From Akkermansiaceae bacterium (lineage in GTDB: Bacteria > Verrucomicrobiota > Verrucomicrobiia > Verrucomicrobiales > Akkermansiaceae), in contig JARWZU010000011.1 in assembly GCA_029866215.1 (NCBI GenBank), positions 62,001 to 126,000 of the forward strand: a DNA stretch of 64,000 nt, in the 5' to 3' direction. Shown in pieces: positions 49,354 through 64,000 of this stretch. How positions within the stretch are numbered: position 1 is the first letter of the stretch; the number at the start of each line of letters is the position of its first letter. The notes under the pieces are model-generated. The model searched no databases and was not told the DNA's origin. It was given only the letters and a program-made list of their open reading frames with translations. The position numbers and the translations under genes were made by a program.

Positions 49354-50235
49354 CTAATTCTGGAGTTCGCCGAGGGATTTCTTTTGGTAGCCTTCATCGC
49401 GCAATTTCCTGAGGTATTCGAGGCTACGTTGTTGCGCCAGCAGATTGGGTTGGCTCGTTGGTGTTGGGTCTTGGCCGTATTTTTTCCAGGGGCCGTAGGG
49501 GACCTGGCTCGCTTCGACAAAGCGCCAGTGGACGCGTTTTCCTGAGCCTAGGCTGAGGTAATCGCGGATGGAGGGTGAGATGTCGATGCCGGCCGCGCCG
49601 TTCTGGGTGTTTTTGGGCGGCTTGTTGCCGAAGACGAACTCCCAGTCATCGGTCACCCAAGGGCCACAATCTTCCCACTGCGCATAGCAACTGCGACTTC
49701 CGTTGTAAATCTGGACCCAGCGACCTTTGCAGACGGATTTCCCTGGCTTTGGCTGCGTCCGTGCAAACCACGGGATGACTTTGGAAGCTTCCGGTTTGTG
49801 GGTGTGGGAATCGGCGATGTCGTTGTACGGCAGGGCGACGTAAAATGGGTTGAGCTTTGGAATAAATCCTTTCGGGCGGAAGTCGCCAGTGGAATGGTTG
49901 GCGATACGATTTGAAGGGCTTGGATCGTCCACCCCGCCAAAGTTGCTGGTCCATTTTTGGTCCCAAGACGACATGTGGTTGGTCACTGGGTTGCGTTTAC
50001 AGGGGTCTTCTCCGACCCAAAATACCGTGCAGGTGACACGAATTTTCCATGGGTAACGGATCGGTGATGCGGGGACTTGGGTCGCAGCGGAGGAGGATCT
50101 CGATCGATCACCGGTGGACACGACCACTCGGGGCGCGTTAGATCTGCTGGTGGTCTGCAGATCCGCCATGGCAGGCCCTGCGCACAGGACGAGCATGAGA
50201 ATGGACAAAAGTGGGTTTTTCAGCAGAAATGACAT
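49354..50235 (-). CDS. Exported protein of unknown function, possibly double-psi beta-barrel-like
   Basis: 293 residues from the ATG at 50235 (MSFLLKNPLLSILMLVLCAGPAMA, a signal peptide); the track's start is an unneeded TTG. The centre has RVTCTVFWVGEDPCKRN, FYVALPYNDIADSHTH, WVQIYNGSRSCYAQWEDCGPW and GAAGIDISPSIRDYLSLGSG, with paired cysteines. The pattern of a small barrel closing on AGIDIS-type residues resembles RlpA or barwin-like double-psi barrels, but I cannot assign a family. It may act in the envelope. Confidence 0.7.
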   Translation of the reverse strand: MSFLLKNPLLSILMLVLCAGPAMADLQTTSRSNAPRVVVSTGDRSRSSSAATQVPASPIRYPWKIRVTCTVFWVGEDPCKRNPVTNHMSSWDQKWTSNFGGVDDPSPSNRIANHSTGDFRPKGFIPKLNPFYVALPYNDIADSHTHKPEASKVIPWFARTQPKPGKSVCKGRWVQIYNGSRSCYAQWEDCGPWVTDDWEFVFGNKPPKNTQNGAAGIDISPSIRDYLSLGSGKRVHWRFVEASQVPYGPWKKYGQDPTPTSQPNLLAQQRSLEYLRKLRDEGYQKKSLGELQN

Positions 50236-50365
50236 GACACGAGAAACGGCCAAGGTGGCGGCGAAGTAATCGGAGATTTAGAGTGAACGAAAATTCACCA
50301 TCGGCAAGCGAAAGATCGGTTGACAATCAGGGTTGCGGCGAGCGGGTGAATCGCTATCACAAGTC

Positions 50366-51187
50366 ATGGCAAATGAGATTCCTGTGGCATTGACGATCGC
50401 TGGTTCGGATTGTTCGGCGGGTGCAGGAATTCAGGCCGATTTAAAAACCTTCCAGCACTTTCGCGTTTATGGCCTGACGGCGGTGACGTGTGTCGTTTCA
50501 GAGACGGCCAACATCGTGAGAGCGATCCACCCAGTGCCGGTTGGGATCATGAGTGACCAGGTGTTGCTCATGCTTGAAAGTTTTCCGGTTGCGGCGGTCA
50601 AGATGGGGATGCTGCATTCGGCTGAGCACGTCGAGGCGGTGGCGGCGATTTTTCGGAGCCATCCGCAGGTGCAGTTGGTGGTGGATCCCGTGATGATTGC
50701 ATCGAGTGGTGCGGCCTTGGTGCGAGATGATGCGGTGGCAGCGTACCGCGAATCACTGCTGCCGCTGGCCACGGTGATCACGCCGAACTTGCCGGAGGCG
50801 GAGGTTCTGCTCGGGCAGTCGATTGGCGACGAGCAAGCCATGGAAGTGGCGGTGCGGCGATTGGAGGAAATGTTTGGCGTCGCGGTTTTGTTGAAGGGCG
50901 GGCACTTGGGTGGGGGCGAGTGTGTTGATTTGCTGCTAGATCATGGGGTGCTGCACCGGTTTTCGGCATCACGAATCGTTGGAGCCGCTGGGCATGGGAC
51001 GGGTTGCACGCTTTCTGCGGCGGTGGCTGCATTGCTTGCGCTGGGGAGGTCAGTTCCGCAGGCGGTCGGCCTCGCCAAGGATTATCTCGGGGAGACCTTG
51101 CTTCACTCGCTTGAATTTGAATCGGGCACCGGTTGCGTCGTTCACGCGTTGAATCAAGGGACGACCTTGGTGAAAAACGGGGCGTGA
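50366..51187 (+). CDS. thiD: Hydroxymethylpyrimidine (phospho)kinase
   Basis: Phosphorylates HMP and HMP-P in thiamine synthesis. 273 residues from the ATG at 50366 (MANEIPVALTIAGSDCSAGAGIQADLKTFQHF), with VYGLTAVTCVVSETA, VAAVKMGMLHSAE, VVDPVMIASSGAALV, VITPNLPEAEVLLG, VLLKGGHL and the C-terminal GAAGHGTGCTLSAAVAA anion hole. The track's start at 50333 adds 11 unconserved residues. No other thiamine gene is nearby. It leads a plus-strand run of four genes. Confidence 0.93.
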   Translation: MANEIPVALTIAGSDCSAGAGIQADLKTFQHFRVYGLTAVTCVVSETANIVRAIHPVPVGIMSDQVLLMLESFPVAAVKMGMLHSAEHVEAVAAIFRSHPQVQLVVDPVMIASSGAALVRDDAVAAYRESLLPLATVITPNLPEAEVLLGQSIGDEQAMEVAVRRLEEMFGVAVLLKGGHLGGGECVDLLLDHGVLHRFSASRIVGAAGHGTGCTLSAAVAALLALGRSVPQAVGLAKDYLGETLLHSLEFESGTGCVVHALNQGTTLVKNGA

Positions 51188-51224
51188 CATTGAGCTGGGA
51201 TTTCGTAGCCTTCCAGTCTAGTTT

Positions 51225-52166
51225 ATGGAGCATTTCCACTCAACAAAATCTTCGCTGCATGGCATCGGTTGCAAGGTCTCTCAACCGTTGGAAGATGGGA
51301 GGGTAGTGAATTCAGGCGCCCATTCGATATTCTCGCGCCGTGGCTTTTTGTTGCTCACCGCAGGGCTTGCCAGCTGCACCGCTGCTCCTCCATTGCAAGA
51401 GGTTGCCCTGAAATCAGGGGCAGTACCGAAGGTCGGCTCTGGAGATCGCTCTGTGGCACCTCGCGGACCCGTTCCTCGCAATCCTGATATGGCGCTGAGG
51501 TCTGATTTCGATGCCGGCTCGGGTTCGTCATTCTCAAGGGTTTTGGTTTCAGGGAATTACATCGCCATGACCTTTGACGATGGGCCGCATCCTCAACACA
51601 CACCGCGTCTGTTAGAAATTCTACGCAAGCGGAACATCAAGGCGACATTTTATCTGGTGGGGCGCAGTGTAGATCTCTATCCGCAAGTGGCCCGAAACAC
51701 TCTAGCGGAAGGGCATGAGATCGGTAATCACAGCTACACGCACCGGCTGCTGAGTAAGCTGAGCGACCGGGAAATCCTAGCAGATTTAGCCCGTTGCCGC
51801 GGCTCGATTCAGCGCGCGACGGGTATCATCCCGCGCACGATGCGTCCTCCCTATGGAGGATTGAATGTGCGCCAACGCCAGCTCGTGTGCCAAGAAATGG
51901 GCTACCCTTCCATTTTTTGGTCGGTCGATCCACTCGACTGGAAGCGCCCCGGCGCAAAGGTTGTCACATCAAGGATTCTTCGCGACACCACGAAGGGAGG
52001 CATTATTCTGGCTCATGACATTCATTCGCAAACGGTGGATGCCATGCCTGCCACTCTCGATGGCTTGCTTCGCGCGGGATTTAAATTTGTGACGGTCTCA
52101 CAGTTGATCGCCATGAAGGTCTCTGCACCGGTTCCTCAAGTGGCGGCGGCGACCGCCTCCCTTTGA
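51225..52166 (+). CDS. Polysaccharide deacetylase (NodB-homology domain)
   Basis: 313 residues. The N-terminal 45 residues are charged, followed by a hydrophobic stretch (GFLLLTAGLASCTAAPPLQ) that resembles a lipoprotein signal with cysteine after AS. The NodB domain starts with AMTFDDGPHPQHTP (metal-binding Asp pair), then LRKRNIKATFYLVG, EIGNHSYTHRLLSKLS (metal histidines), MRPPYGG, SVDPLDWKRPG, and GGIILAHDIH. Such enzymes remove acetyl groups from peptidoglycan or other glycans at the cell envelope. Confidence 0.92.
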   Translation: MEHFHSTKSSLHGIGCKVSQPLEDGRVVNSGAHSIFSRRGFLLLTAGLASCTAAPPLQEVALKSGAVPKVGSGDRSVAPRGPVPRNPDMALRSDFDAGSGSSFSRVLVSGNYIAMTFDDGPHPQHTPRLLEILRKRNIKATFYLVGRSVDLYPQVARNTLAEGHEIGNHSYTHRLLSKLSDREILADLARCRGSIQRATGIIPRTMRPPYGGLNVRQRQLVCQEMGYPSIFWSVDPLDWKRPGAKVVTSRILRDTTKGGIILAHDIHSQTVDAMPATLDGLLRAGFKFVTVSQLIAMKVSAPVPQVAAATASL

Positions 52167-52182
52167 CTCAATCATTGACCTT

Positions 52183-53910
52183 GTGAACCACTCCGAGTTC
52201 AGCGACCGCCACTTTGCGACGCGTGAACGACTCTCTGAAGTCATCCGCGGCATCGCGGCATTGTCGGAAGAAACGGAGACAGAGCTTGGGCATTTGCTCT
52301 CGGAGTCAGGGGAGCGAATCGATCTTGATTCGCCATGGCTGATGGTCGTGGCTGGGGAGCCAATTGCAGACACGCCTCGCTTCATTCATGGTCTGGTGGG
52401 CCAGGATTTGGGTCCCGGAAACGCCTCGCAGAAGTCGGCTCGCATTCGTTGGTACCGCCATGGACTTGAAACCCGCAACAATACCCGCTCGGCGAATTTC
52501 GAAATTTGCGAGCGGCCGATTGATTTCTTGCGCCGTTTCAGTCTGGTTGAGGTGCCGAGCGCGCAGGTGGGATCTCAAATCCAGCTGGACGCCACCACCC
52601 GCTTGTTACCCCGTGCAGATTTGATTTTCATGGTTTTTCCTGCATCGAATCCTTGGGGAGCGGCGACGTGGAATGCCATCGCAACGTTCCCGCCGGAAAC
52701 TCTTGAAAAGACGGTACTTGTCCTTCAGCAGTCGAATCCGTGCGAGTCATCGGATTTGAAGGTGATCACGGGTCATGTGGCGGATCTGGCGGTGAAGCGA
52801 ATCGGACGGGTTCTTCCGCTTTTTACCGTTTCTGGCAAGCTAGCGAGTGAGGCGAAACGAACCAGTCCGCCCGCGGTGGAGACCTACCAGGCTAGTGGCT
52901 ATTTCGAGTTGGAGCATTTCATTGGGCAGCGGATTCGCGAGTCAAAGGACCGGCAGCAGATGTTGAAAACTTGGTATGAACGCGCGGAATCTGCCATCCG
53001 TCTCATCGATGATCAGATCGAGTCGCAGAGTCGAGCGCTCAGCGACCACGGTCGTTTCCTCGACACGATCGAGCGTGAGATTGATGACATCCGCGAATAT
53101 TTCATTGCCCGCTTGCCCCTTCATCTCGTGGGAGTCGCGGAGGTTTTTCAGTTAGAAACCATTGGGATTGCCAAGGTTCTCCGCCGGCGATTGGCAGTGA
53201 TACCCTCCGTTTATCGGCTTTTTGCGGCGGACCGAACGGGTGTGTCGATCGAGTCGCTTTTTATCGAGCGTCTCCAAGCGGCGGTTGAGGTTGTCGCCGA
53301 GAACGACGGGGCCGAGGTGGTTCTTCACTGCAAGCGCCATCGACAAACGTTGGATGCAAGGGCGAGGGAAACGATGGGGATCGATCTCAAAAATGCCGAT
53401 CAACTGGATGAAGTTTTGGACACGAGTAAAATCCATTTTAAGCAGCATTTGTCAGGGGCCGCTCGACACGGGGTTCATGATTTGCGAGTTCGGCATGAGT
53501 TGGAAAAGCAGATCCGGCGGCGCAATTCGGAGCTGCAGTCGTTCGTGATCGCGGTGCTGATTTCTACGTCGGCAGGAGGAATCACCGGGGCCCTTGGGGT
53601 TGCGTGGCTGCCGTTCGCATGTTGTGGAATTGCGGGGCTTTTGGGGCTTGTTTGCATCGTCAAGGCGTACGGCACCCGACGGGCCATTGAACACGAGTTT
53701 CAAAGTCGCCTGCTGGATGCGTGTGACGAATTTGCGACCATGCTCCGCTCGGATTACAGCGAAGCGCTGCGGCGGGTTTGCCAAGATTACGCATCGTCGT
53801 TGTCAGAGGTTCGAGGCTACCTTTTTCGTGAAAAGCATGCGCTCGCACCGCGTCTCAAGCGGTGGAAAGAGTTGTTCCTCACGCTCAAGGCGGTGGAGCA
53901 GGATCTTTGA
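52183..53910 (+). CDS. Dynamin-like protein with degenerate GTPase domain
   Basis: 575 residues beginning with GTG. After a helical start, residues about 51-76 read PWLMVVAGEPIADTPRFIHG and then LVGQDL, which lines up without gaps with the P-loop region of bacterial dynamin-like proteins (VVVGEFNAGKSTLINALLG). The GKST positions are DTPR here. The G3 DTPG position reads EVPS, and the G4 NKxD position reads QQSN. The rest is largely alpha-helical, with a hydrophobic paired segment near residues 447-488, as in dynamins with membrane paddles. I infer a dynamin-fold protein that no longer binds GTP. It follows the deacetylase by 16 bases. Confidence 0.65.
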   Translation: MNHSEFSDRHFATRERLSEVIRGIAALSEETETELGHLLSESGERIDLDSPWLMVVAGEPIADTPRFIHGLVGQDLGPGNASQKSARIRWYRHGLETRNNTRSANFEICERPIDFLRRFSLVEVPSAQVGSQIQLDATTRLLPRADLIFMVFPASNPWGAATWNAIATFPPETLEKTVLVLQQSNPCESSDLKVITGHVADLAVKRIGRVLPLFTVSGKLASEAKRTSPPAVETYQASGYFELEHFIGQRIRESKDRQQMLKTWYERAESAIRLIDDQIESQSRALSDHGRFLDTIEREIDDIREYFIARLPLHLVGVAEVFQLETIGIAKVLRRRLAVIPSVYRLFAADRTGVSIESLFIERLQAAVEVVAENDGAEVVLHCKRHRQTLDARARETMGIDLKNADQLDEVLDTSKIHFKQHLSGAARHGVHDLRVRHELEKQIRRRNSELQSFVIAVLISTSAGGITGALGVAWLPFACCGIAGLLGLVCIVKAYGTRRAIEHEFQSRLLDACDEFATMLRSDYSEALRRVCQDYASSLSEVRGYLFREKHALAPRLKRWKELFLTLKAVEQDL

Positions 53911-53960
53911 GCGAATCGAACCGCAAAATCGCTTCAAATGTAGACCCGCCAGTCACCAAC

Positions 53961-54470
53961 ATGCAACGGGAGGCTTCGCATGACGCAATGAGAGATCAGC
54001 GCTTTGTCGCAAAGCACCGCGGTGGGCCACTTGAGTTGGCGCATCACCAGTTGCTGGTGCTTTGGGCGGCGGATTGCGCGGAGCGGGTATTCTTGCGCTT
54101 CGAAGCGGCACAAGTAGATGATCGGCCTCGGCAAGCCATTGCGGTGGCGAGATTATGGGCGAGGGGAGAGGTTCGCACGGGAGCAGCACAAAAAGCATCG
54201 GTCGCCGCGCACGCTGCGGCCCGTAGTTTGAGCAATCCATTAGCGGTTGCCGTCGCACGGGCTGCGGGCCATGCGGCCGCCACCGCTCACATGGCGGATC
54301 ATTGCATCGGTGCTGCCAGCTACGCGCTCAAAGCCATTGAGGCCTCGCAAGGGGCGAGTGACGCCGAACTAGCGTGGCAGGACGCCCAAGTCCCAGAAAT
54401 ACTGCAGGCTTGGATCGTCCCAGCCATGCGCCGCGGGTTTCCTGCTCGATTTCGTGGGAAAAAGGAGTGA
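53961..54470 (+). CDS. Imm-5-like putative immunity-family protein
   Basis: 169 residues from the ATG at 53961 (MQREASHDAMRDQRFVAKH); ATG at 53988 is an alternative, and the track's 53862 start overlaps the preceding gene by 49 bases. The core LAHHQLLVLWAADCAERVFL, DDRPRQAIAVARLWARGE, and AGHAAATAHMADHCIGAASYALKA is the pattern of the putative immunity/Imm-5-like family, an all-helical fold with a repeated Ala/His-rich layout. No toxin gene is adjacent, so an immunity role is unproven. Confidence 0.7.
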   Translation: MQREASHDAMRDQRFVAKHRGGPLELAHHQLLVLWAADCAERVFLRFEAAQVDDRPRQAIAVARLWARGEVRTGAAQKASVAAHAAARSLSNPLAVAVARAAGHAAATAHMADHCIGAASYALKAIEASQGASDAELAWQDAQVPEILQAWIVPAMRRGFPARFRGKKE

Positions 54471-54806
54471 TTTTATCGTTAAATCTGGTGAAAGAGCTCT
54501 TTGAACGGCTCAGCTCGGGTTTTTGATGTTATCTCGGCACGGAAGTTCGTGCAATCGGCAGCAATTTTGCAGGATTTGACAAAAATTCGTCATTTTTTGA
54601 AGAAAATTTGAAAATAGGACTTGTCAGGTTCGATTCGGCTCCTAGAGTCGCCCCCCCCACAGCGAGGGCCGCTGACGATTTTATCGAAGCGGCTTAAATT
54701 ACAGGGAAAATTTATCGGGTGCAGCTCCGGAAAAAAGCTCTTACGAGGAATCCTCGTCGGCGCTCCGGTTTGCCCCCATGGGAAAATCAGAACCACGCAG
54801 GAAATC
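54471..54806 (+). other. Leader region of the str operon
   Basis: About 336 bases before rpsL. It holds an exact 12-bp palindrome AAAGAGCTCTTT (54491-54502), a TTGACA at 54576 without a matching -10 box at 16-18 bases, a run of eight C residues near 54652, and a short hairpin ACGAGG-AAT-CCTCGT at 54743-54757. A long leader is usual for ribosomal-protein operons and may carry an autoregulatory site. The open frame through it is an extension of rpsL and not coding. Confidence 0.5.
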
Positions 54807-55214
54807 ATGCCGACAATCAATCAGCTCGTTCGCAAGGGACGCCTCACTCCGGCCGAAAAGTCGAAGTCACCCGCTCTCGTGAACTGCCCACAGCGCCGCG
54901 GAGTATGTCTTCAAGTCATGACTCGGACGCCCAAGAAGCCGAACTCGGCTCTCCGCAAAGTGGCCAAAGTGCGCCTCACCAACGGATTCGAGGTCATCGC
55001 CTACATTGGTGGTGAAGGACACAACCTCCAGGAACACTCGATCGTCCTCGTTCGCGGTGGACGGGTTAAGGACCTTCCAGGGGTACGGTACCACATCGTT
55101 CGTGGTTCACTCGACACCCTTGGTATCGATAAGCGCCGCCAAAGCCGCTCGAAGTACGGTGCAAAGCGTCCGAAACCCGGCGCCGCTGCCGCTCCTGCCA
55201 AAAAAGGCAAGTAA
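54807..55214 (+). CDS. rpsL: 30S ribosomal protein S12
   Basis: 135 residues from the ATG at 54807 ([12 protein letters not shown]). It carries [31 protein letters not shown], with lysine 43 of the decoding loop in the streptomycin-sensitive state, and [16 protein letters not shown] with the aspartate often methylthiolated. The last 20 residues are Pro/Ala/Lys-rich. The track's 54621 start is an upstream in-frame extension without family likeness. First gene of the str operon. Confidence 0.97.
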
Positions 55215-55250
55215 TTAACGGTCAACCATCCATCACAAACTCCAACCGCC

Positions 55251-55724
55251 ATGCCACGCCGCAAGCGCATTTTCACCAAGCCAGACCGTCGCGATCCTCG
55301 CTATGACAGTCCTCTCGTCGGTCACCTCATCACCAAGGTGATGGAGTCCGGCAAGCGTTCACTCGCTCAACGCATCGTTTATGCTGCGATTGACCGCGCC
55401 AACGAGGGTGTCGACACCATCGATCCACTCGAAGTCATTACCCGTGCCGTTGAAAATACCAAACCACGTGTGGAAGTGAAATCCCGCCGCGTGGGAGGTG
55501 CAACTTACCAGGTGCCGCTTGAAGTGGCGCCAGATCGCTCTGAGTCGCTTTCGATGCGTTGGCTTGTCAATTACGCCCGCAACCGCAAGGGGACTCCAAT
55601 GCACGTAGCCCTTGCCAATGAAATTAAGGACGCCGCCAACAACCAAGGCAGCGCCGTTCGCAAGCGTGACGACGTTCATAAGATGGCACAAGCCAACCGT
55701 GCCTTCGCCCATTTCCGTTTCTAA
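55251..55724 (+). CDS. rpsG: 30S ribosomal protein S7
   Basis: 157 residues. MPRRKRIFTKPDRRDPRYDS leads, followed by LITKVMESGKRSLAQRIVYAA, VENTKPRVEVKSRRVGGATYQVPLEV, and the C-terminal DDVHKMAQANRAFAHFRF. It nucleates assembly of the 30S head. It lies 36 bases after rpsL and 27 before fusA. No Shine-Dalgarno sequence is seen; the ATG sits in GCCATG. Confidence 0.97.
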   Translation: MPRRKRIFTKPDRRDPRYDSPLVGHLITKVMESGKRSLAQRIVYAAIDRANEGVDTIDPLEVITRAVENTKPRVEVKSRRVGGATYQVPLEVAPDRSESLSMRWLVNYARNRKGTPMHVALANEIKDAANNQGSAVRKRDDVHKMAQANRAFAHFRF

Positions 55725-55751
55725 TCGATCCTCGTACACGAGTTTTTCTCA

Positions 55752-57893
55752 GTGAATCCTAACAGTCCCAACCGCCAATACGTGCTCGACCGCACCCGAA
55801 ATATCGGGATCGCTGCGCACATTGATGCGGGTAAGACAACGCTCACCGAGCGGATTCTCTTCTACACTGGGATGATCCACAAAATCGGCGAAGTCCACGA
55901 TGGCGGCGCAACGACGGACTGGATGGAGCAAGAGCGCGAACGTGGAATTACGATCACTTCCGCTGCCGTCACGACTGAGTGGTGGCAACACGAGGAGCCT
56001 GGAATGACCAAGCTCTTTCCGAGCCAAAAAAATCGGATCAATATCATTGATACTCCAGGACACGTTGATTTCACCGCAGAAGTCGAGCGTTCCCTCAGAG
56101 TCCTCGACGGTGCAATTGTGGTTTTCTGCGGTGTTGCTGGTGTTCAGCCTCAGTCCGAGACCGTTTGGCGCCAAGCGACGAAGTACCGTGTACCTCGACT
56201 CGTGTTCGTCAACAAGATGGACCGTACCGGGGCAAACTTCGAGAATGTCTTTTCTGAGGTGAAGGAAAAGCTCGGTGCAAACGCCGTGAAAGTCCTCATT
56301 CCAATCGGTTCTGAAGATCAGTTGATCGGACAGATCGACGTGGTCAACCAGAAGGCTGTCTATTTTTCGGATGACGACAAGTTCGGTTCGACTTACACAG
56401 TCAAGGAGCTTGAAGGAGATCTCATCGATCTCTGCAAGCAGGCTCACGACGAGCTGGTGAATGCTGTTGCTGATGTCGACGAATTGGTTGGGGAAAAATT
56501 CCTCAACGAAGAAACCATCACGCTGGAGGAACTCAAACAGGGGATCCGCCGCGCAACGATCGCAAACCATCTGGTTCCAGTCGCGGGTGGTTCGGCCTTC
56601 AAAAACAAAGGTGTCCAGTACCTGCTCGATGCCGTCATCGACTATCTTCCAAGCCCGCTAGACATTCCTTCGGCGATCGGAATGGACCCCGACCATGAGG
56701 AAACTCAGATCGAAGTCGTCACCTCCGACAACGAGAAATTCGTCTCACTCGCATTCAAGCTTTGGGCGGACAAGTTCGTCGGCAAGTTGGTGTTCTTCCG
56801 CGTTTACTCCGGTGTCATTCGCAAAGGTGACACTGTTTACAACCCTCGCACTCGCCGTTCGGAGCGTGTTGGTCGCCTGATTCAGATTCAAGCAAACGAG
56901 CACAAAGACATCGATGCCTGCTACGCTGGCGACATTGCGGCAATGGTGGGGATTAAAAATGTCACCACCGGCGACACGCTCGCTGCGGAAAAGTACGACG
57001 TGGTCTTGGAGCCACCGACCTTCCCAGAACCGGTTATCTCGATGGCTGTCGAACCGAAGACCGTCGCTGACCAAGAGAAGTTGGGACTTGCCCTCGGCCG
57101 CTTGTCGGAAGAGGACCCGACCTTCATGGTGAAAACCGATGAAGAAACTGGCCAAGTCATCATTTCTGGTATGGGTGAGCTTCACCTAGAAATCATCATC
57201 GATCGCATCCGCCGCGAATTCAAGGTAGAGGCAAACACCGGTGCTCCTCAAATCGCTTACCGCGAAACCATCACGCAGTCTGCGGGTGGCGAGGGCAAGC
57301 TGATCAAGCAATCCGGTGGCCGTGGTCAATATGGCCACGTTGTTCTCTCGATCCAGCCGAATGACAAAGGAAAAGGCCTTACCATCGAAAATAAGGTGAT
57401 CGGTGGCGCGATTCCTAAGGAATACATCAACGCAGTTTACAAGGGGATCACGGAGTCCATGTCGAATGGCGTAATTGCGGGCTACCCTGTCATCGATGTG
57501 CTTGTCGAGATTCTCGATGGTTCCTACCACGACGTGGATTCGAACGAAAATGCATTTACGATGGCCGCCATTTTTGCAATGAAGGATGGCTTTAAGAAGG
57601 CAAACTCGATTCTTCTTGAGCCCATCATGGCCGTCGAAGTTTCAACGCCTGATGACTACCAAGGTGATGTGATGGGGGATCTCAGCCGCCGCAGGGGCCA
57701 GATTCAAAACACCGAGTCCAAGGGCAGACTCTCCATCGTCCACGCCAACGTTCCTCTCAAAGAAATGTTCGGCTACTCCACCGCCGTACGCACTCTCTCT
57801 TCGGGCCGCGCTTCTTATGCAATGACCCCATCGCATTTCGAGCAAGTCCCTAAAAACATCGTCGAAGAAATCGTCAGCGACCGCATGGGCTAA
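55752..57893 (+). CDS. fusA: Elongation factor G
   Basis: 713 residues starting with GTG. A GTPase that moves tRNAs and mRNA during translocation. G1 is [15 protein letters not shown], switch I region ends in [10 protein letters not shown]3 is DTPGHVDFT, and G4 is NKMDRTGAN. Domains II to V follow, with [13 protein letters not shown] in domain III and the domain IV region [12 protein letters not shown]. tuf, which usually follows fusA in the str operon, is absent; rpsJ begins 46 bases later. Confidence 0.97.
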
Positions 57894-57939
57894 TATGCCC
57901 TTTCACTAACTCACGCAAACCGCCAACTCAATCTCCACC

Positions 57940-58248
57940 ATGGAAAACCAGAAAATCCGAATCCGCCTGCGTGCCTTTGATCACCGTGCGATCGACCGTT
58001 CAGCTCAAGAAATCGTCGAAACCGCTAAGAGAACTGGAGCCCGCGTTGCCGGACCGATCCCGCTCCCAACTCGCATCGAAAAGTTCACCGTTAACCGCTC
58101 GGTTCACGTGAACAAAAAGTCGATGGAGCAGTTCGAAATCCGCACCCACAAGCGCCTTCTCGACATCGTCGATCCAACCGCACGCACCGTCGATGAGCTC
58201 AAAAAGCTCAATCTTCCTGCCGGTGTGGACATCACCATCCGCATCTGA
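57940..58248 (+). CDS. rpsJ: 30S ribosomal protein S10
   Basis: 102 residues: [26 protein letters not shown], then [35 protein letters not shown], and a C-terminal GVDITIRI. It binds 16S rRNA in the head and also takes part in Nus-factor antitermination with NusB. First gene of the S10 operon. The ATG lies in CACCATG without a Shine-Dalgarno sequence. Confidence 0.97.
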
Positions 58249-58304
58249 GTTTTTTTGAATCAGATTTTCTACTCTCACTTTTCACTCTCAACTTCAATAC
58301 CGCC

Positions 58305-58940
58305 ATGTCACTCGGCCTCCTCGGCAAAAAAATCGGAATGACCCGCCTGTTCGACCAACAGGCAGGGATCATGATCCCTGTCACCGTCATCGACGTTTCC
58401 GGCAACACGGTTCTTCAGGTCAAGACCCCAGAAACCGATGGTTACACTGCAGTCCAAGTCGGCTATGGCGATCAGAAAGAACAACGTGTGAGCAAGCCAG
58501 CTCTCGGAATCTTCAAGAAAGCAGGATCAACTCCGAAGCGCTTCATCCAAGAGTTCCGTCTCGAGAATGGCACCGAAGCTCCAGCCGTGCATCCCGGCCT
58601 TGAAACTTTCACTGAAGGCCAGTGGGTTGACGTGATTGGTGAATCGAAGGGACGCGGTTTCCAAGGTGCCGTCAAGCGCCACGGCTTCGGCGGTCTCAAA
58701 ATGACCCACGGATCCATGATGCATCGCCGGACGGGTGCAATTGGTTGCCGCTCGACCCCAGGTCGGGTTTGGAAAAACCAAAAAATGCCAGGTCACATGG
58801 GTACAACCCGTGCCACCGTCCAAAATCTCAAAATTGTCGCCGTACGCGCTGAAGATGGTGTTATCCTCGTCTCTGGTGCAGTTCCCGGTTCAAACGGAAA
58901 CTATGTTACCGTCCGCCCCGCAAAGAAAAAGTCCGCCTAA
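58305..58940 (+). CDS. rplC: 50S ribosomal protein L3
   Basis: 211 residues. SLGLLGKKIGMTRLFDQ opens the protein; the conserved loop near the peptidyl-transferase centre reads GFGGLKMTHGSMMHRRTGAIG followed by RVWKNQKMPGHMG. It is an early assembly protein of the 50S subunit. Standard second gene of the S10 operon. Confidence 0.97.
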   Translation: MSLGLLGKKIGMTRLFDQQAGIMIPVTVIDVSGNTVLQVKTPETDGYTAVQVGYGDQKEQRVSKPALGIFKKAGSTPKRFIQEFRLENGTEAPAVHPGLETFTEGQWVDVIGESKGRGFQGAVKRHGFGGLKMTHGSMMHRRTGAIGCRSTPGRVWKNQKMPGHMGTTRATVQNLKIVAVRAEDGVILVSGAVPGSNGNYVTVRPAKKKSA

Positions 58941-58977
58941 TCGGGTGGCATTCTGAAACATTTCACGATTCACAGTC

Positions 58978-59586
58978 ATGTCAGCTAAGACTTTCACCGC
59001 AGAAGACGCTCAAGCCGCCAACCTCGTGTTGGTAGGTGCTGAGAAAGGTCGCCAAGCCGTTCACGATCTCGTGATCGCCTACCGCGCCAACCGCCGCACC
59101 GGCTCCGCATGCACGAAAACCCGTGGCGAGGTTTCCGGTAACAACCGTAAGATATATAAGCAAAAAGGCACTGGCGGCGCACGCCACGGCGACAAACGCG
59201 CTCCGATCTTCGTCGGTGGTGGTGTTGTTTTCGGCCCACGCCCAAGAGATTATTCCAAGAAGGTGACCAAGACTGTCCGCAAGCTCGCGCTTCGTCGCAC
59301 CCTTGGTGACTTGGTTCGTGCTGAAAAAATCAAGTCCGTAGAGAGCTTTTCCGTGGCCGATGGAAAGACAAAGTCTTTCATTGCCGCCCTCGATGCGCTC
59401 GTCAACCCTGGCAAAATCCTGGTGGTTGCCAACCACTTCGACGATTCCACCTACTTAGCCGGCCGCAATGTCGCTTGGGTTCAGTTGGTGAATGCCTCCG
59501 ACGTTAACGTCGAACAACTCCTCCTCGCCAACAGTGTCATCCTCGTGGGTGATGCCGTTCAAACTCTTGCAGCTCGTACTGCCTGA
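58978..59586 (+). CDS. rplD: 50S ribosomal protein L4
   Basis: 202 residues. The tentacle loop that lines the exit tunnel reads [40 protein letters not shown], which is the family signature. The C-terminal globular part is typical. In E. coli L4 represses the S10 operon; whether this applies here is not known, as no S10 leader like that of E. coli is recognisable. Confidence 0.96.
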
Positions 59587-59609
59587 ACCCCGGACCTAAT
59601 ACCGAGATT

Positions 59610-59894
59610 ATGAAAGACATTTACCAGGTCATTAAAAACGTCCGACTCTCCGAAAAAGCAACCTTGCTTCAAGAGACAAATAACGAGATCACTCTCGAAG
59701 TTGACCGCAAGGCCAACAAACTCGAGATCAAACAAGCCGTTGAACAGCTCTTCGGAAAAACTGTCTTGGCCGTCCGCACTGCCAACTATGACGGTAAACT
59801 CCGCCGCCAACGACGCGCCGATGCCGGTCGCACTAACCACTGGAAGAAAGCCATCGTTCGCCTCAAGGAAGGTGAATCTCTCGACCTCGTCTGA
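59610..59894 (+). CDS. rplW: 50S ribosomal protein L23
   Basis: 94 residues with YQVIKNVRLSEKATLLQET, ITLEVDRKANKLEIKQAVEQLFGKTVLAVRT, and the extended loop GKLRRQRRADAGRTNHWKKAIVRL. L23 sits at the exit of the peptide tunnel and docks trigger factor and SRP. Standard order in the S10 operon. Confidence 0.96.
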   Translation: MKDIYQVIKNVRLSEKATLLQETNNEITLEVDRKANKLEIKQAVEQLFGKTVLAVRTANYDGKLRRQRRADAGRTNHWKKAIVRLKEGESLDLV

Positions 59895-59942
59895 GTGATC
59901 CATCCGTTGTTCCCAACGTAATAAACTAACGTTCAGATTGCC

Positions 59943-60788
59943 ATGCCCCTGAAAAATTTCAAGCCAATCACTCCATCTGCCCGCTACAAGAGTCTTCCGT
60001 CCTTCGACGAGATTACCAAGAGCAAGCCTGAGAAGAGTCTTCTCACTCCACTCAAGCGCAGTGGTGGTCGTAATAACACCGGCCGCATCACCTGCCGTCA
60101 CATCGGTGGTGGTCACAAGCGTCACTACCGTCTGATCGATTTCAAGCGCGGCAAGCACGATGCTCCTGCAACCGTCGTTGGTATCGAGTACGATCCAAAC
60201 CGCACCTGCCGCATCGCGCTCATCCAATATGCCGACGGACAAAAGTCTTACATCCTTGCACCGCTTGGTCTTGAGGTTGGGAGCACAGTCGTCGCTGGCG
60301 AGAATGTTGCACCGAAGACGGGAAATGCCATGCCTCTCAGCGCTGTTCCACTTGGTACTTCGATTCATAACATCGAGTTGATCCCAGGTAATGGCGGCAA
60401 GGTCGCACGTGCCGCGGGCCAGCTCGCCGTCCTTTCCAACCGCGATGGTGGTTGGGCGCTCGTGAAAATGCCTTCAGGTGAGATTCGCCGATTCAATGAT
60501 CGTTGTTTCTGTACGATCGGGCAGGTCGGAAATCGTGACCACATGAACGAAACCTCAGGCAAAGCCGGCCGCACTCGCTGGCAGGGTGTCCGCCCAACCG
60601 TCCGTGGTATGACGATGAACCCAGTCGATCACCCCAACGGCGGTGGTGAAGGTAAGTCGAAGTCCGGTGGTGGTCGTCAGCACCTCACGAGCCCATGGGG
60701 CCACGCGAAGGGTCAAAAGACCCGCAACAAGCGCAAGCCAACCAGTGTGTTCATTGTCGAGTCTCGCCACAAGGCGAAGAAGAAGTAA
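59943..60788 (+). CDS. rplB: 50S ribosomal protein L2
   Basis: 281 residues. [33 protein letters not shown] near the N-terminus and the C-terminal [27 protein letters not shown] are the invariant regions; the latter carries the histidine near the peptidyl-transferase centre. It is the largest protein of the 50S core and needed for subunit joining. Confidence 0.97.
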
Positions 60789-60822
60789 TCCCATTTCTTG
60801 AACCATTCAACTTACTGATTTC

Positions 60823-61095
60823 ATGCCACGCTCACTAAAAAAAGGCCCATTCGTCGACCAAAAGCTTCTTGCGAAGATCGATGCTGTTGCCGACGCCGGA
60901 TCCGACCGCAAGCCCATCAAAACATGGAGCCGCAAGTCGATGATCACTCCAGACTTCGTCAGCCACAACTTTGCAGTACACAACGGCAAGACGTTCGTGC
61001 CGGTGTACGTCACGGAAAATATGGTTGGCCATAAGCTTGGCGAATTCGCACCGACCCGGATTTTCCGGACTCACGGTGGTATCGGCAAGAAGTAA
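60823..61095 (+). CDS. rpsS: 30S ribosomal protein S19
   Basis: 90 residues: [64 protein letters not shown] and the C-terminal [10 protein letters not shown]. It sits in the 30S head with S13. In most bacteria rplV follows directly; here a gene for an exported coiled-coil protein intervenes after 26 bases. Confidence 0.97.
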
Positions 61096-61121
61096 ACCTT
61101 TTAGGCGTCATCCTCGTATCC

Positions 61122-61847
61122 ATGTCCTCGACATTCCATTTCAAAGCAGTTGCCACGGCCCTTGGGTTTATGGCCGTCGCGGAGATGTGTGTCGGAGAGG
61201 TGCCAACCGCTGCACAATACCAGGACCGGATTGTTGCGCTCGAGACCCAGAATCAAACACTGCAACGCAGCTTGGTTGAGGCAAATCGGGGCGAGAAGCA
61301 AGCTTCTGAGCAATTGGCTCAGGTCCGTGAGCGCCTTGAAGCTCTTGGGAAAAATCTTCTCGATGGTGGTGACGATCGGCTCATCCATGCTGCAGCTGAC
61401 CTGCAGTTGGCAAATGAGAAAGCTTCAAGTCTCGAGCACTCGGCGATGAACCTGACTTCGGCCATCACCGATTACCTGCATCAGGCAGTGGTTTCTGACC
61501 CCGCTGCAAGAATTCGTGTAGAAACTTCTCTCAGAGAGCTTGACGCTGTCCTTGGACTGCGTCAAAAGCCTCTCCCCGATGTTCACGCCGGCTCGCTCCA
61601 GCAAGCTCGGATTGTGAGTCTCGATCAGGAAAGCGGAATGATGGTTTTGAATCTTGGTGAAACCCAAGGTGCCAAAATTGGAATGACGTTCACTCTCACC
61701 CGTGGGCAGCAGCCTTACGGTAAAGCCATTCTCGCTGATGTCCGCAAGGGCGTCAGTGGTGCCTTTGTCGAAAACCTCGACAACGTCGCCGAATCCCCAC
61801 GCACAGGCGATCTCGCCAATCTCGAAACACAAGCATCCGCTCAGTAA
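61122..61847 (+). CDS. Exported coiled-coil protein of unknown function inside the S10 operon
   Basis: 241 residues with a likely signal sequence (FKAVATALGFMAVAEMCVGE), a coiled-coil region at about residues 32-80 (YQDRIVALETQNQTLQRSLV, EKQASEQLAQVRERLEAL), a helical middle part, and a C-terminal beta domain (ARIVSLDQESGMMVLNLGET, AKIGMTFTLTRG, YGKAILADVRKGVSGAFVEN). That last domain resembles C-terminal barrels of flagellar FlgT or similar envelope proteins, where NLG.xxGxxxGMxF is common. It is not a ribosomal protein. It lies 26 bases after rpsS and 18 before rplV, so it must be on the S10 transcript. The start is not preceded by a Shine-Dalgarno sequence, like its neighbours. Confidence 0.82.
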   Translation: MSSTFHFKAVATALGFMAVAEMCVGEVPTAAQYQDRIVALETQNQTLQRSLVEANRGEKQASEQLAQVRERLEALGKNLLDGGDDRLIHAAADLQLANEKASSLEHSAMNLTSAITDYLHQAVVSDPAARIRVETSLRELDAVLGLRQKPLPDVHAGSLQQARIVSLDQESGMMVLNLGETQGAKIGMTFTLTRGQQPYGKAILADVRKGVSGAFVENLDNVAESPRTGDLANLETQASAQ

Positions 61848-61865
61848 TTATCCACGCCCGACGAC

Positions 61866-62291
61866 ATGGAAGTCAAAAGTACCACTAAATTTGTTCGCCT
61901 CTCGCCTAAAAAGGCGCGTGACGTCGCCCGCGAAATTCAAGGACTCGCAGTCTCAAGCGCCCTTGATATTCTTACCTTCACTCCGAAGAAGGCTGCCCAA
62001 TTGATTGGCAAGACTTTGAAGACCGCCATCGCGGATGCGGAAAATAATTTTTCCCTCGATGCCTCGTCCCTTGTGATCAAGGAGGCCGTCATCGGCGCGG
62101 GCCCAACGCTTCGTCGCTTCAAGCCACGCGCCAAGGGTTCAGCAGGTCCAATCCTCAAGCGTACCAGCCATATTTCGATCACACTCGTCGGCTCTGCCCC
62201 CGAGAAGAAAAAGAAGGTGGCCCGCAAGGCTGCCGCGAAAGCTGTAGAAGAAACTCCAGTGGCTGCCACCGCCGTTGAAGAACAAGCCTGA
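61866..62291 (+). CDS. rplV: 50S ribosomal protein L22
   Basis: 141 residues: KFVRLSPKKARDVAREIQGLAV, LTFTPKKAAQLIGKTLKTAIADAENNF, and the tunnel loop region VGAGPTLRRFKPRAKGSAGPILKRTSHISITL (here IGAGPTLRRFKPRAKG). The last 35 residues are a Lys/Ala/Glu-rich extension beyond the usual family end. L22 lines the exit tunnel. Confidence 0.96.
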   Translation: MEVKSTTKFVRLSPKKARDVAREIQGLAVSSALDILTFTPKKAAQLIGKTLKTAIADAENNFSLDASSLVIKEAVIGAGPTLRRFKPRAKGSAGPILKRTSHISITLVGSAPEKKKKVARKAAAKAVEETPVAATAVEEQA

Positions 62292-62324
62292 ATTCATCTC
62301 TCTTAATCTCATCCTTCACCGAAC

Positions 62325-63059
62325 ATGGGCCAAAAAGTAAATCCGATCGCATTCCGTCTCGCCGTCAACAAAGACTGGCGCTCAAAGTGGTATGCCAGTG
62401 GTAAAGACTATACCGACAAACTCCACGAGGATCTCGCGATCCGTGGCTACCTGAAAAATAAGCTGGTGAACGCCGGTTTGGCGCGAGTCGTCATCGAACG
62501 CGCCTGGAACAGTGTGCGTGTGACACTCCACACCTCACGTCCCGGGCTGATCATCGGTCGCCAAGGCAAGGAAATCGAGGTGATGACCAAAGATATTTCC
62601 GGCCTCTGCAAGGGTGCCCAAGTCAAAATCGACATCATCGAAATTCGCAAGCCTGAGCTCGACGCCCAACTGGTCGCTGAGCAAATTGCCGTTCAACTTG
62701 AGCGCCGTATTAGTTTCCGCCGTGCGATGAAGCGTGCACTCCAGACCGCCATGGAATTCGGTGCCGAAGGAATTCGTCTCCGTTGTGCTGGCCGTCTTGG
62801 TGGCGCTGACATCGCCCGTGCTGAAGGATATCGCGAAGGCAAGGTGCCTCTCCAGACTCTCCGTGTTCCTCTCGACTACGGTTTTGCCGAAGCTCGTACC
62901 TTGTATGGCATCATCGGCATCAAGTGCTGGGTCAACAAGAAGGAAGACGACGGCACAGGCAAGCAGCCTCAAGGTCGTAATGATCGGGGAGACCGCGGTG
63001 ATCGTGGTGGCCGCGGCGGTGACCGTGGAGGTGATCGCCGTCCAAACAATCGCAACTGA
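62325..63059 (+). CDS. rpsC: 30S ribosomal protein S3
   Basis: 244 residues. GQKVNPIAFRLAVNKDWRSKWYA, the KH domain with RPGLIIGRQGKEIEVM, FRRAMKRALQTAMEFGAEGIRLRCAGRLGGADIAR, and VPLQTLRVPLDYGFAEARTLYG are the family features. The tail carries an unusual repeat of Gly/Arg/Asp (GDRGDRGGRGGDRGGDRRPN), an RGG-like RNA-binding extension. It takes part in mRNA entry to the ribosome. Confidence 0.96.
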   Translation: MGQKVNPIAFRLAVNKDWRSKWYASGKDYTDKLHEDLAIRGYLKNKLVNAGLARVVIERAWNSVRVTLHTSRPGLIIGRQGKEIEVMTKDISGLCKGAQVKIDIIEIRKPELDAQLVAEQIAVQLERRISFRRAMKRALQTAMEFGAEGIRLRCAGRLGGADIARAEGYREGKVPLQTLRVPLDYGFAEARTLYGIIGIKCWVNKKEDDGTGKQPQGRNDRGDRGDRGGRGGDRGGDRRPNNRN

Positions 63060-63096
63060 TTTATTCATTTCACATATTTTAAACCACACTTTTCCT

Positions 63097-63102
63097 AGGA
63101 GG
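63097..63102 (+). promoter_or_regulatory. Perfect Shine-Dalgarno sequence AGGAGG of rplP
   Basis: AGGAGG ends 8 bases before the rplP ATG. It is the only full Shine-Dalgarno match I see before a ribosomal-protein gene in this window; the others begin in CC(A)TG-like contexts without purine-rich sequence. Confidence 0.85.
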
Positions 63103-63110
63103 ACCGAGTT

Positions 63111-63530
63111 ATGCCTTTGATGCCCAAACGAACCAAGTTCCGCAAGAGCCACCGCGGAAGCCGCTCTGGCAATGCCCAGCGTGGAACCACTGTTGCCTTC
63201 GGAGATTTCGGCCTGCAAACCCTTGATCGCGGATGGATGACCAACCGCCAGATCGAAGCTTGCCGGATCGCAATCAACCGCTCACTGAAACGGAAAGGAA
63301 AAGTCTGGATCCGGATTTTCCCACACAAGTCGATCACCTCACGACCACCTGAAACCCGGATGGGTAAAGGTAAAGGTGCTGTCGAAGGCTGGGTGGCCGT
63401 GATTCGTCCGGGCAACGTCCTCTTCGAAATCGGAGGTGTTCCTGAGTCTGCAGCCAAAGAAGCGATGCGCCTCGCATCCTATAAGCTCGGCATTCGCACC
63501 CGCCTCGTCACCCGCAATCCTCACGCCTGA
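63111..63530 (+). CDS. rplP: 50S ribosomal protein L16
   Basis: 139 residues: [84 protein letters not shown], all family hallmarks, with the conserved arginine region near the peptidyl-transferase centre. It has the only perfect ribosome-binding site of the cluster. Confidence 0.97.
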
Positions 63531-63565
63531 TCTTCCCGATCTTCTCAACCTCATTTTTTTGAACC

Positions 63566-63766
63566 ATGGCAAAATCCAAAGCCAAATCCGCCAACGAGTT
63601 GTCTCCTACAGAGCTTGAAGTTCGCCTTCGCGAGCTCAAGCAGGAAGCACTCAATCTCCGTCTCCAGCGCGCCACCGGCACCTTGGAAAATCCTGCACGC
63701 ATTCGCCAAGTGCGTCGCGAAACTGCGCAAGTTCTTACGGCTGTGACCGCTAAGAAGAGTGTTTGA
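63566..63766 (+). CDS. rpmC: 50S ribosomal protein L29
   Basis: 66 residues: AKSKAKSANELSPTELEVRLRELKQEALNLRLQRATGTLENPARIRQVRRETAQVLT. The two-helix hairpin and LRLQxATGxLENPxRIRxVRR motif identify L29, which sits beside L23 at the tunnel exit. Confidence 0.96.
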   Translation: MAKSKAKSANELSPTELEVRLRELKQEALNLRLQRATGTLENPARIRQVRRETAQVLTAVTAKKSV

Positions 63767-63799
63767 TCCGAGACCCTAACGCAATAACCTACCGATACC

Positions 63800-64000
63800 A
63801 TGAGCGAGACTCCCCAGGAAACAAAGATCCACATCCGTAAAACCCGCGTTGGCGTGGTCATTTCCAATAAAATGGATAAAACCCTCGTTGTTGAACACAT
63901 TGCCCGTGTTCCGCATCCCAAATTCAATAAAATCGTCAAACGTTCCAAGAAATACTACGTGCACGACGAAACCAACCAGGGGCAAATCGGCGATCGCGTA
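63800..64000 (+). CDS. rpsQ: 30S ribosomal protein S17, 5' part (runs off the window)
   Basis: The first 67 codons are present ([20 protein letters not shown], then [20 protein letters not shown] and [11 protein letters not shown]). [14 protein letters not shown] and [14 protein letters not shown] are S17 hallmarks. The ATG at 63800 lies in TACCATG; the ORF track shows only an antisense ORF here. The gene continues past the window edge. Confidence 0.95.

Follow-up and report, generated by a model that had tools for sequence, protein, structure and literature searches.

Nonribosomal genes do occur within bacterial ribosomal operons, as secY, adk, and map do in spc, and in Chlamydiae and Planctomycetes rpsS and rplV are, as far as is known, contiguous. 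A search of the open literature gave no description of a gene between rpsS and rplV, nor of nonribosomal inserts in the S10 operon, and no phylum-wide passenger inside the rpsS–rplV pair. For the encoded protein considered below, the closest described counterparts are FlgT, a flagellar basal-body component according to its PDB title, whose C-terminal domain (PF16538; PDB 3w1e; LPHT ring 8z5n) is a six-stranded barrel; TsaP, a LysM-containing component of the type IV pilus machine (PDB 3jc8) that stabilizes the outer-membrane secretin PilQ (PMC10653833); and MreC, in which a membrane-proximal helix or coil is followed by a beta domain and for which Verrucomicrobium spinosum has a separate mreC gene (PMC12283558). 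The known PVC signature protein CT421.2 is about 53–80 aa long (PMC3444138).

The window, by which we mean the whole stretch of 64,000 nucleotides from an Akkermansiaceae bacterium that was analyzed, ends in a str/S10-type cluster in which all genes lie on the + strand in the order fusA, rpsJ, rplC, rplD, rplW, rplB, rpsS, X, rplV, rpsC, rplP, rpmC, and rpsQ. X is an ORF that starts with ATG, and its size and its distances from rpsS and rplV (Table 1) are exactly those given by an earlier, sequence-only reading of this DNA. The spacers are similarly short elsewhere, with medians over 122 loci of 21 bp for rpsS–X and 20 bp for X–rplV, and no promoter- or terminator-like site was found on the + strand at either junction. 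Because X lies on the same strand as its neighbors, with short spacers and without such junction sites or an internal terminator, it is probably transcribed within the S10 ribosomal operon, on the S10 mRNA. No Shine–Dalgarno-like motif was found at the start of X, and most neighboring genes likewise have none; an Rfam scan of window positions 50000-64000 gave no matches. Elsewhere in the cluster, rpsJ directly follows fusA (57894-57939) and tuf, often located between the two, is absent; a repeat tail rich in RGD/RGG closes rpsC (62325-63059), and rplV has a terminal extension rich in Lys, Ala, and Glu.

Table 1. Gene X, its neighbors, and the predicted parts of its protein, in window coordinates
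Feature	Coordinates	Strand	Evidence
Gene X: exported coiled-coil/beta-barrel protein (predicted), 241 aa, uncharacterized family	61122..61847	+	ORF, homologues, purifying selection
rpsS (ribosomal protein S19), upstream neighbor of X	60823..61095	+	
rplV (ribosomal protein L22), downstream neighbor and constant partner of X	61866..62291	+	
Spacer rpsS–X, 26 bp; no terminator- or promoter-like site	61096..61121	+	
Spacer X–rplV, 18 bp; no terminator- or promoter-like site on the + strand	61848..61865	+	
Probable Sec-type signal sequence, about residues 1–26	61122..61199	+	hydropathy scan of homologues
Coiled-coil/helical stalk (predicted), residues 30–143	61209..61550	+	AF2 helices
C-terminal beta-barrel domain (predicted), about residues 157–238	61590..61835	+	AF2 strands, conserved residues

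X is a real gene under purifying selection. Its dN/dS is 0.08–0.09 against two close relatives (95% protein identity) and 0.12–0.19 against more distant congeners, with dS ranging from 0.28 to 1.65 in these comparisons, compared with 0–0.06 for the ribosomal neighbors. Of 59 relatives, 56 have a homologue, as does every one of the 42 with a completeness of 90% or more; given its length, the purifying selection, and these homologues, X is not a chance ORF. The relatives found by sequence that carry names are mostly Akkermansiaceae metagenome genomes. Three metagenome records titled Akkermansia muciniphila (L035, L036, and L037) contain an X 76–80% identical to that of the window; they resemble members of the window's genus-level group, not gut Akkermansia, and are probably misnamed.

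Among the 68 loci first compared, which represent six families of the order, X adjoins rplV on the same strand in every case and also follows rpsS wherever the locus extends that far. Comparison of the rpsS–rplV gap across Verrucomicrobiota, which the sequence-only reading had suggested, placed X no more than 2 kb downstream of rpsS, on the same strand, in 87 of the 138 genomes of the class with a detectable rpsS, and in several other classes, where 19 genomes have X between rpsS and rplV (profile E 1e-10 to 1e-25). In a class-wide search, the 76 best profile matches to X were all beside rpsS, ahead of the first match elsewhere. Several families of other classes have an S10 cluster that breaks off after rpsS, with rplV located elsewhere; in one set of loci (L149, L150, L152, L153, L155, L157, L159, L166, and L167, with L169-L184) the split falls exactly after rpsS, and rplV–rpsC–rplP are at another site of the genome. 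We located rplV in 16 split-cluster genomes and found X directly upstream of it in 11 of these, a related, weakly scoring ORF (E 0.0017) having the same position in a twelfth, L177. As X stays upstream of rplV in the split genomes, it belongs with rplV and not with rpsS.

Synteny and the tree show that X is an ancient, vertically inherited gene of Verrucomicrobiota that has been located between rpsS and rplV since an early ancestor of the phylum. The presence and absence of X need at least 11 changes on a tree of 107 genomes, which is based on five ribosomal proteins and alone cannot root the history of gain and loss; short versus full-length X needs one change on the same tree. Since lineages on either side of the deepest split have X at the same site, ancestral presence is the simplest reading, and the tree implies an ancestral gene that was cleanly lost several times and that once lost its coiled coil. 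One clade without X comprises 17 sampled genomes with 16 family codes (f11, f16, f20, f22, f24, f26, f27, f29, f31, f34, f37, f39, f42, f45, f47, and f51), in which the rpsS–rplV spacer is −1 to 14 bp, and X was lost separately in f12 and others. Searches for remnants in the loci without X gave chance-level matches only. At one locus, L105, rpsS and rplV are separated by a GC-rich spacer of 552 bp without a recognizable X or a convincing ORF; this spacer may represent either a decayed X or a new regulatory region inside the operon. The short X (108–130 aa), with the signal and the barrel and without the coil, is found in one clade (f13, f17, f38, f43, f46, and f49). In two genomes of a single genus, g110 in family f52, X has moved from rplV: the copy in L190 (2570-3322) shares 4 bp with the end of an RND efflux pump gene and that in L189 (2652-3350) lies 23 bp behind the gene for a large secreted protein, and both match the rplV-linked X of their own family best. 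The suggestion that X had been inserted between rpsS and rplV is right about the location and misleading about the event, X being ancestral over most of the phylum, whereas its use as a lineage marker reaches far deeper than guessed, across most of the phylum with losses. Decay of the reading frame in relatives lacking the ORF was looked for and not found, the absences being clean deletions in separate clades.

The predicted protein has three parts, and a hydropathy scan of the homologues and an AF2 model support the signal-like N terminus, long coiled coil, and C-terminal beta domain that had been read from the sequence. In the simple hydropathy scan, 127 of 135 homologues have an N-terminal hydrophobic segment and 115 of the 135 a net positive charge before it, the charged and hydrophobic pattern of an export-type segment; together with the conserved position, this bears out the earlier view of a nonribosomal gene with an export-type signal fixed in the S10 cluster. 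The N terminus resembles a cleavable signal in most homologues, although apparent lipoboxes, indicating a lipoprotein signal, are seen in L137 and L141 and membrane-anchor-like N termini in L138 and L143-L146. We infer from this conserved N terminus that X is a Sec-exported protein. The AF2 model (mean pLDDT 70) predicts an N-terminal helix, a long helix at residues 30–123, a second helix at 127–143, and six beta strands at 161–236, and a model of the barrel alone reaches pLDDT 74 and pTM 0.65, the models being built from shallow alignments of 12–13 close sequences (pTM 0.35 and 0.65). Across 84 nonredundant barrels, G179, G183, G187, R208 of a D-V-R motif, and a C-terminal Gly-Asp pair are near-invariant.

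The explanation that we favor, with moderate confidence, is that X is an ancestral gene of the phylum for an exported periplasmic scaffold, made of a coil and a barrel resembling the C-terminal domains of FlgT and TsaP, and that it resides in the ribosomal operon by historical lock-in. The protein would be exported by Sec and would combine a coiled-coil stalk with a beta barrel like those of FlgT/TsaP-C. The coil may drive oligomerization and act as an adjustable spacer or oligomerizer, and the barrel is probably the working core, being the only one of the two that the short forms retain in the clade that dropped the coil. By analogy with FlgT and TsaP, X could form an oligomeric scaffold or collar in the periplasm against an envelope assembly or a peptidoglycan-proximal layer. 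Breakage of the S10 cluster would be costly, so that X would be either kept in place or cleanly deleted, and X would be able to work elsewhere, as seen in one genus.

A different account, anticipated in the sequence-only reading as a link between growth rate and an envelope function, is that X is kept in the S10 operon since its amount must follow ribosome synthesis. The X–rplV linkage, kept over the phylum and surviving the splitting of the operon, is what such functional coupling predicts, as are the short spacers (median 20 bp) and the lack of an internal promoter or terminator in our searches, but operon lock-in accounts for the linkage without coupling. Codon usage is average and nonribosomal: the CAI of X is 0.556 against 0.61–0.73 for the ribosomal genes, at the 58th percentile of 38 other genes, and in 40 of 61 loci X ranks lower than all of the ribosomal genes. 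The high expression expected under coupling was thus not found in the codon usage. Coupling is also opposed by the clean losses, which occurred independently and one of which takes in 17 sampled genomes from 16 families. Because two genomes of a single genus retain an X that has left the ribosomal locus, ribosomal coexpression is not required. Historical lock-in explains the average codon usage, the clean losses, and the relocation better than a required coupling to growth rate, which we regard as unlikely. Rather improbable is the stronger version in which X is a dedicated device tying envelope building to ribosome production, an exported scaffold with its dosage set by the ribosomal operon and its linkage to rplV selected; if it were true, envelope capacity in Verrucomicrobiota would follow growth rate.

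X might instead belong to the known FlgT, TsaP, or MreC family and simply have a new location. When the window protein by itself was compared with Pfam, NCBIfam, and the PDB, the matches were coiled-coil noise only, and FlgT_C (PF16538) had no match in it. FlgT_C does match 5 of 33 homologues below the threshold (best E 0.0089), with 16.7 bits for the homologue L138 and 19.9 bits for an anchored paralogue, neither reaching the Pfam gathering score of 27 bits; the match to the TsaP profile spans the barrel together with its DVR motif (E 0.0089), and the MreC profile matches weakly (E 0.025). In comparison with the PDB, the two best matches of the barrel-only model are FlgT structures (TMq 0.64 and 0.62, E 4e-3 to 6e-3), with F1-ATPase N-terminal barrels scoring almost as well, and a viral fold search gave one FlgT_C-named model (TMt 0.65, rmsd 2.6), its other matches being noise. 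The structure-database search advised at the outset returned FlgT matches to the barrel, but none in Foldseek at E ≤ 0.001, and the fold assignment is not unique. Three weak signals, from Pfam, the TsaP profile, and the PDB fold, agree on a FlgT/TsaP-like barrel, none being significant alone; they weakly suggest a resemblance to the FlgT and TsaP C-terminal domains at the level of the domain, not membership.

Full membership is contradicted by missing domains, by scores below the curated cutoffs, and by the ribosomal context. The X model shares the six-stranded barrel with FlgT, but the N-terminal and middle domains of FlgT are missing and a coiled coil is found instead; X is a predicted exported protein with ribosomal neighbors, and we saw no flagellar gene context around it. 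With TsaP, the barrel alone matches: a LysM domain was found neither in X nor in the list of families for the 33 homologues, and no pilus genes surround X. MreC shares the order of helix or coil and then beta domain, but X has one beta domain and is not beside mreB, the NCBIfam matches to MreC are all below threshold, and the MreC fold is not among the top structural matches. We therefore give membership in any of these families little credence, whereas a relation at the domain level remains likely. Secretins, considered as a partner of X, were uninformative: 58 of the 60 genomes sampled from the class have them, whether X is present or not, and they are absent together with X only in family f12; the two genomes concerned, G065 and G072, are small and, unlike the other 58, have neither X nor a secretin.

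L22, the product of rplV, lines the ribosomal exit tunnel, and the constant partnership of X with rplV, along with the membrane-anchored appearance of some homologues, could be taken to mean that X is linked to translation or to the ribosome, serving through its N-terminal anchor as a membrane tether for ribosomes or for nascent chains near L22. We find this very improbable: most homologues have cleavable-looking signals and two have apparent lipoboxes, the positive charge before the hydrophobic segment predicts a C terminus on the outside, the barrel resembles periplasmic proteins, and X has been lost many times with the ribosomal genes undisturbed. Finally, many of the genomes are metagenome assemblies, but a misassembly, binning error, or spurious ORF is refuted, to near certainty, by the occurrence of rpsS–X–rplV in genomes of one or two contigs (G004, G041, G077, G098, and G171), its span over several classes, and the purifying selection on X.

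The order of genes in S10 serves as a fixed landmark of bacterial genomes, and for most of the phylum, probably including gut Akkermansia, a nonribosomal gene for a predicted secreted protein is part of this landmark and travels with rplV when the cluster breaks. X is a real, ancient, and unexplained component and not a local oddity, and it provides a clear marker of the history of the phylum, with countable losses and one domain loss. It also offers a natural test case for asking whether function or history holds operon partners together. The family is uncharacterized but belongs to a cultivable group, and a transposon essentiality data set, which should include a result for X if the species has the gene, has been published for Verrucomicrobium spinosum (PMC12283558), a species in which targeted mutagenesis is available.

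The same phylum contains a second family of anchored coiled-coil and barrel proteins, widespread and apparently undescribed (L192, L193, L195, L197, L199, L202, L185:2577-4422, and L188:3671-4417); an Akkermansia-like genome has two of its genes in tandem near rplS, flanked by pnp and nth. These paralogues share the coil-plus-barrel architecture of X and are clearly similar to it by profile (E 1e-15 to 1e-24), but they have a transmembrane anchor and an 'NPxWNFVVLxxG' motif, mostly lack the DVR motif, lie in other genomic places, and match one another better than X. CT421.2 is a different and much smaller protein than X. The nearest parallels in genomic setting are secY, adk, and map, which, as X probably is, are nonribosomal genes within a ribosomal transcription unit, but which differ from X in belonging to other clusters and having known functions.
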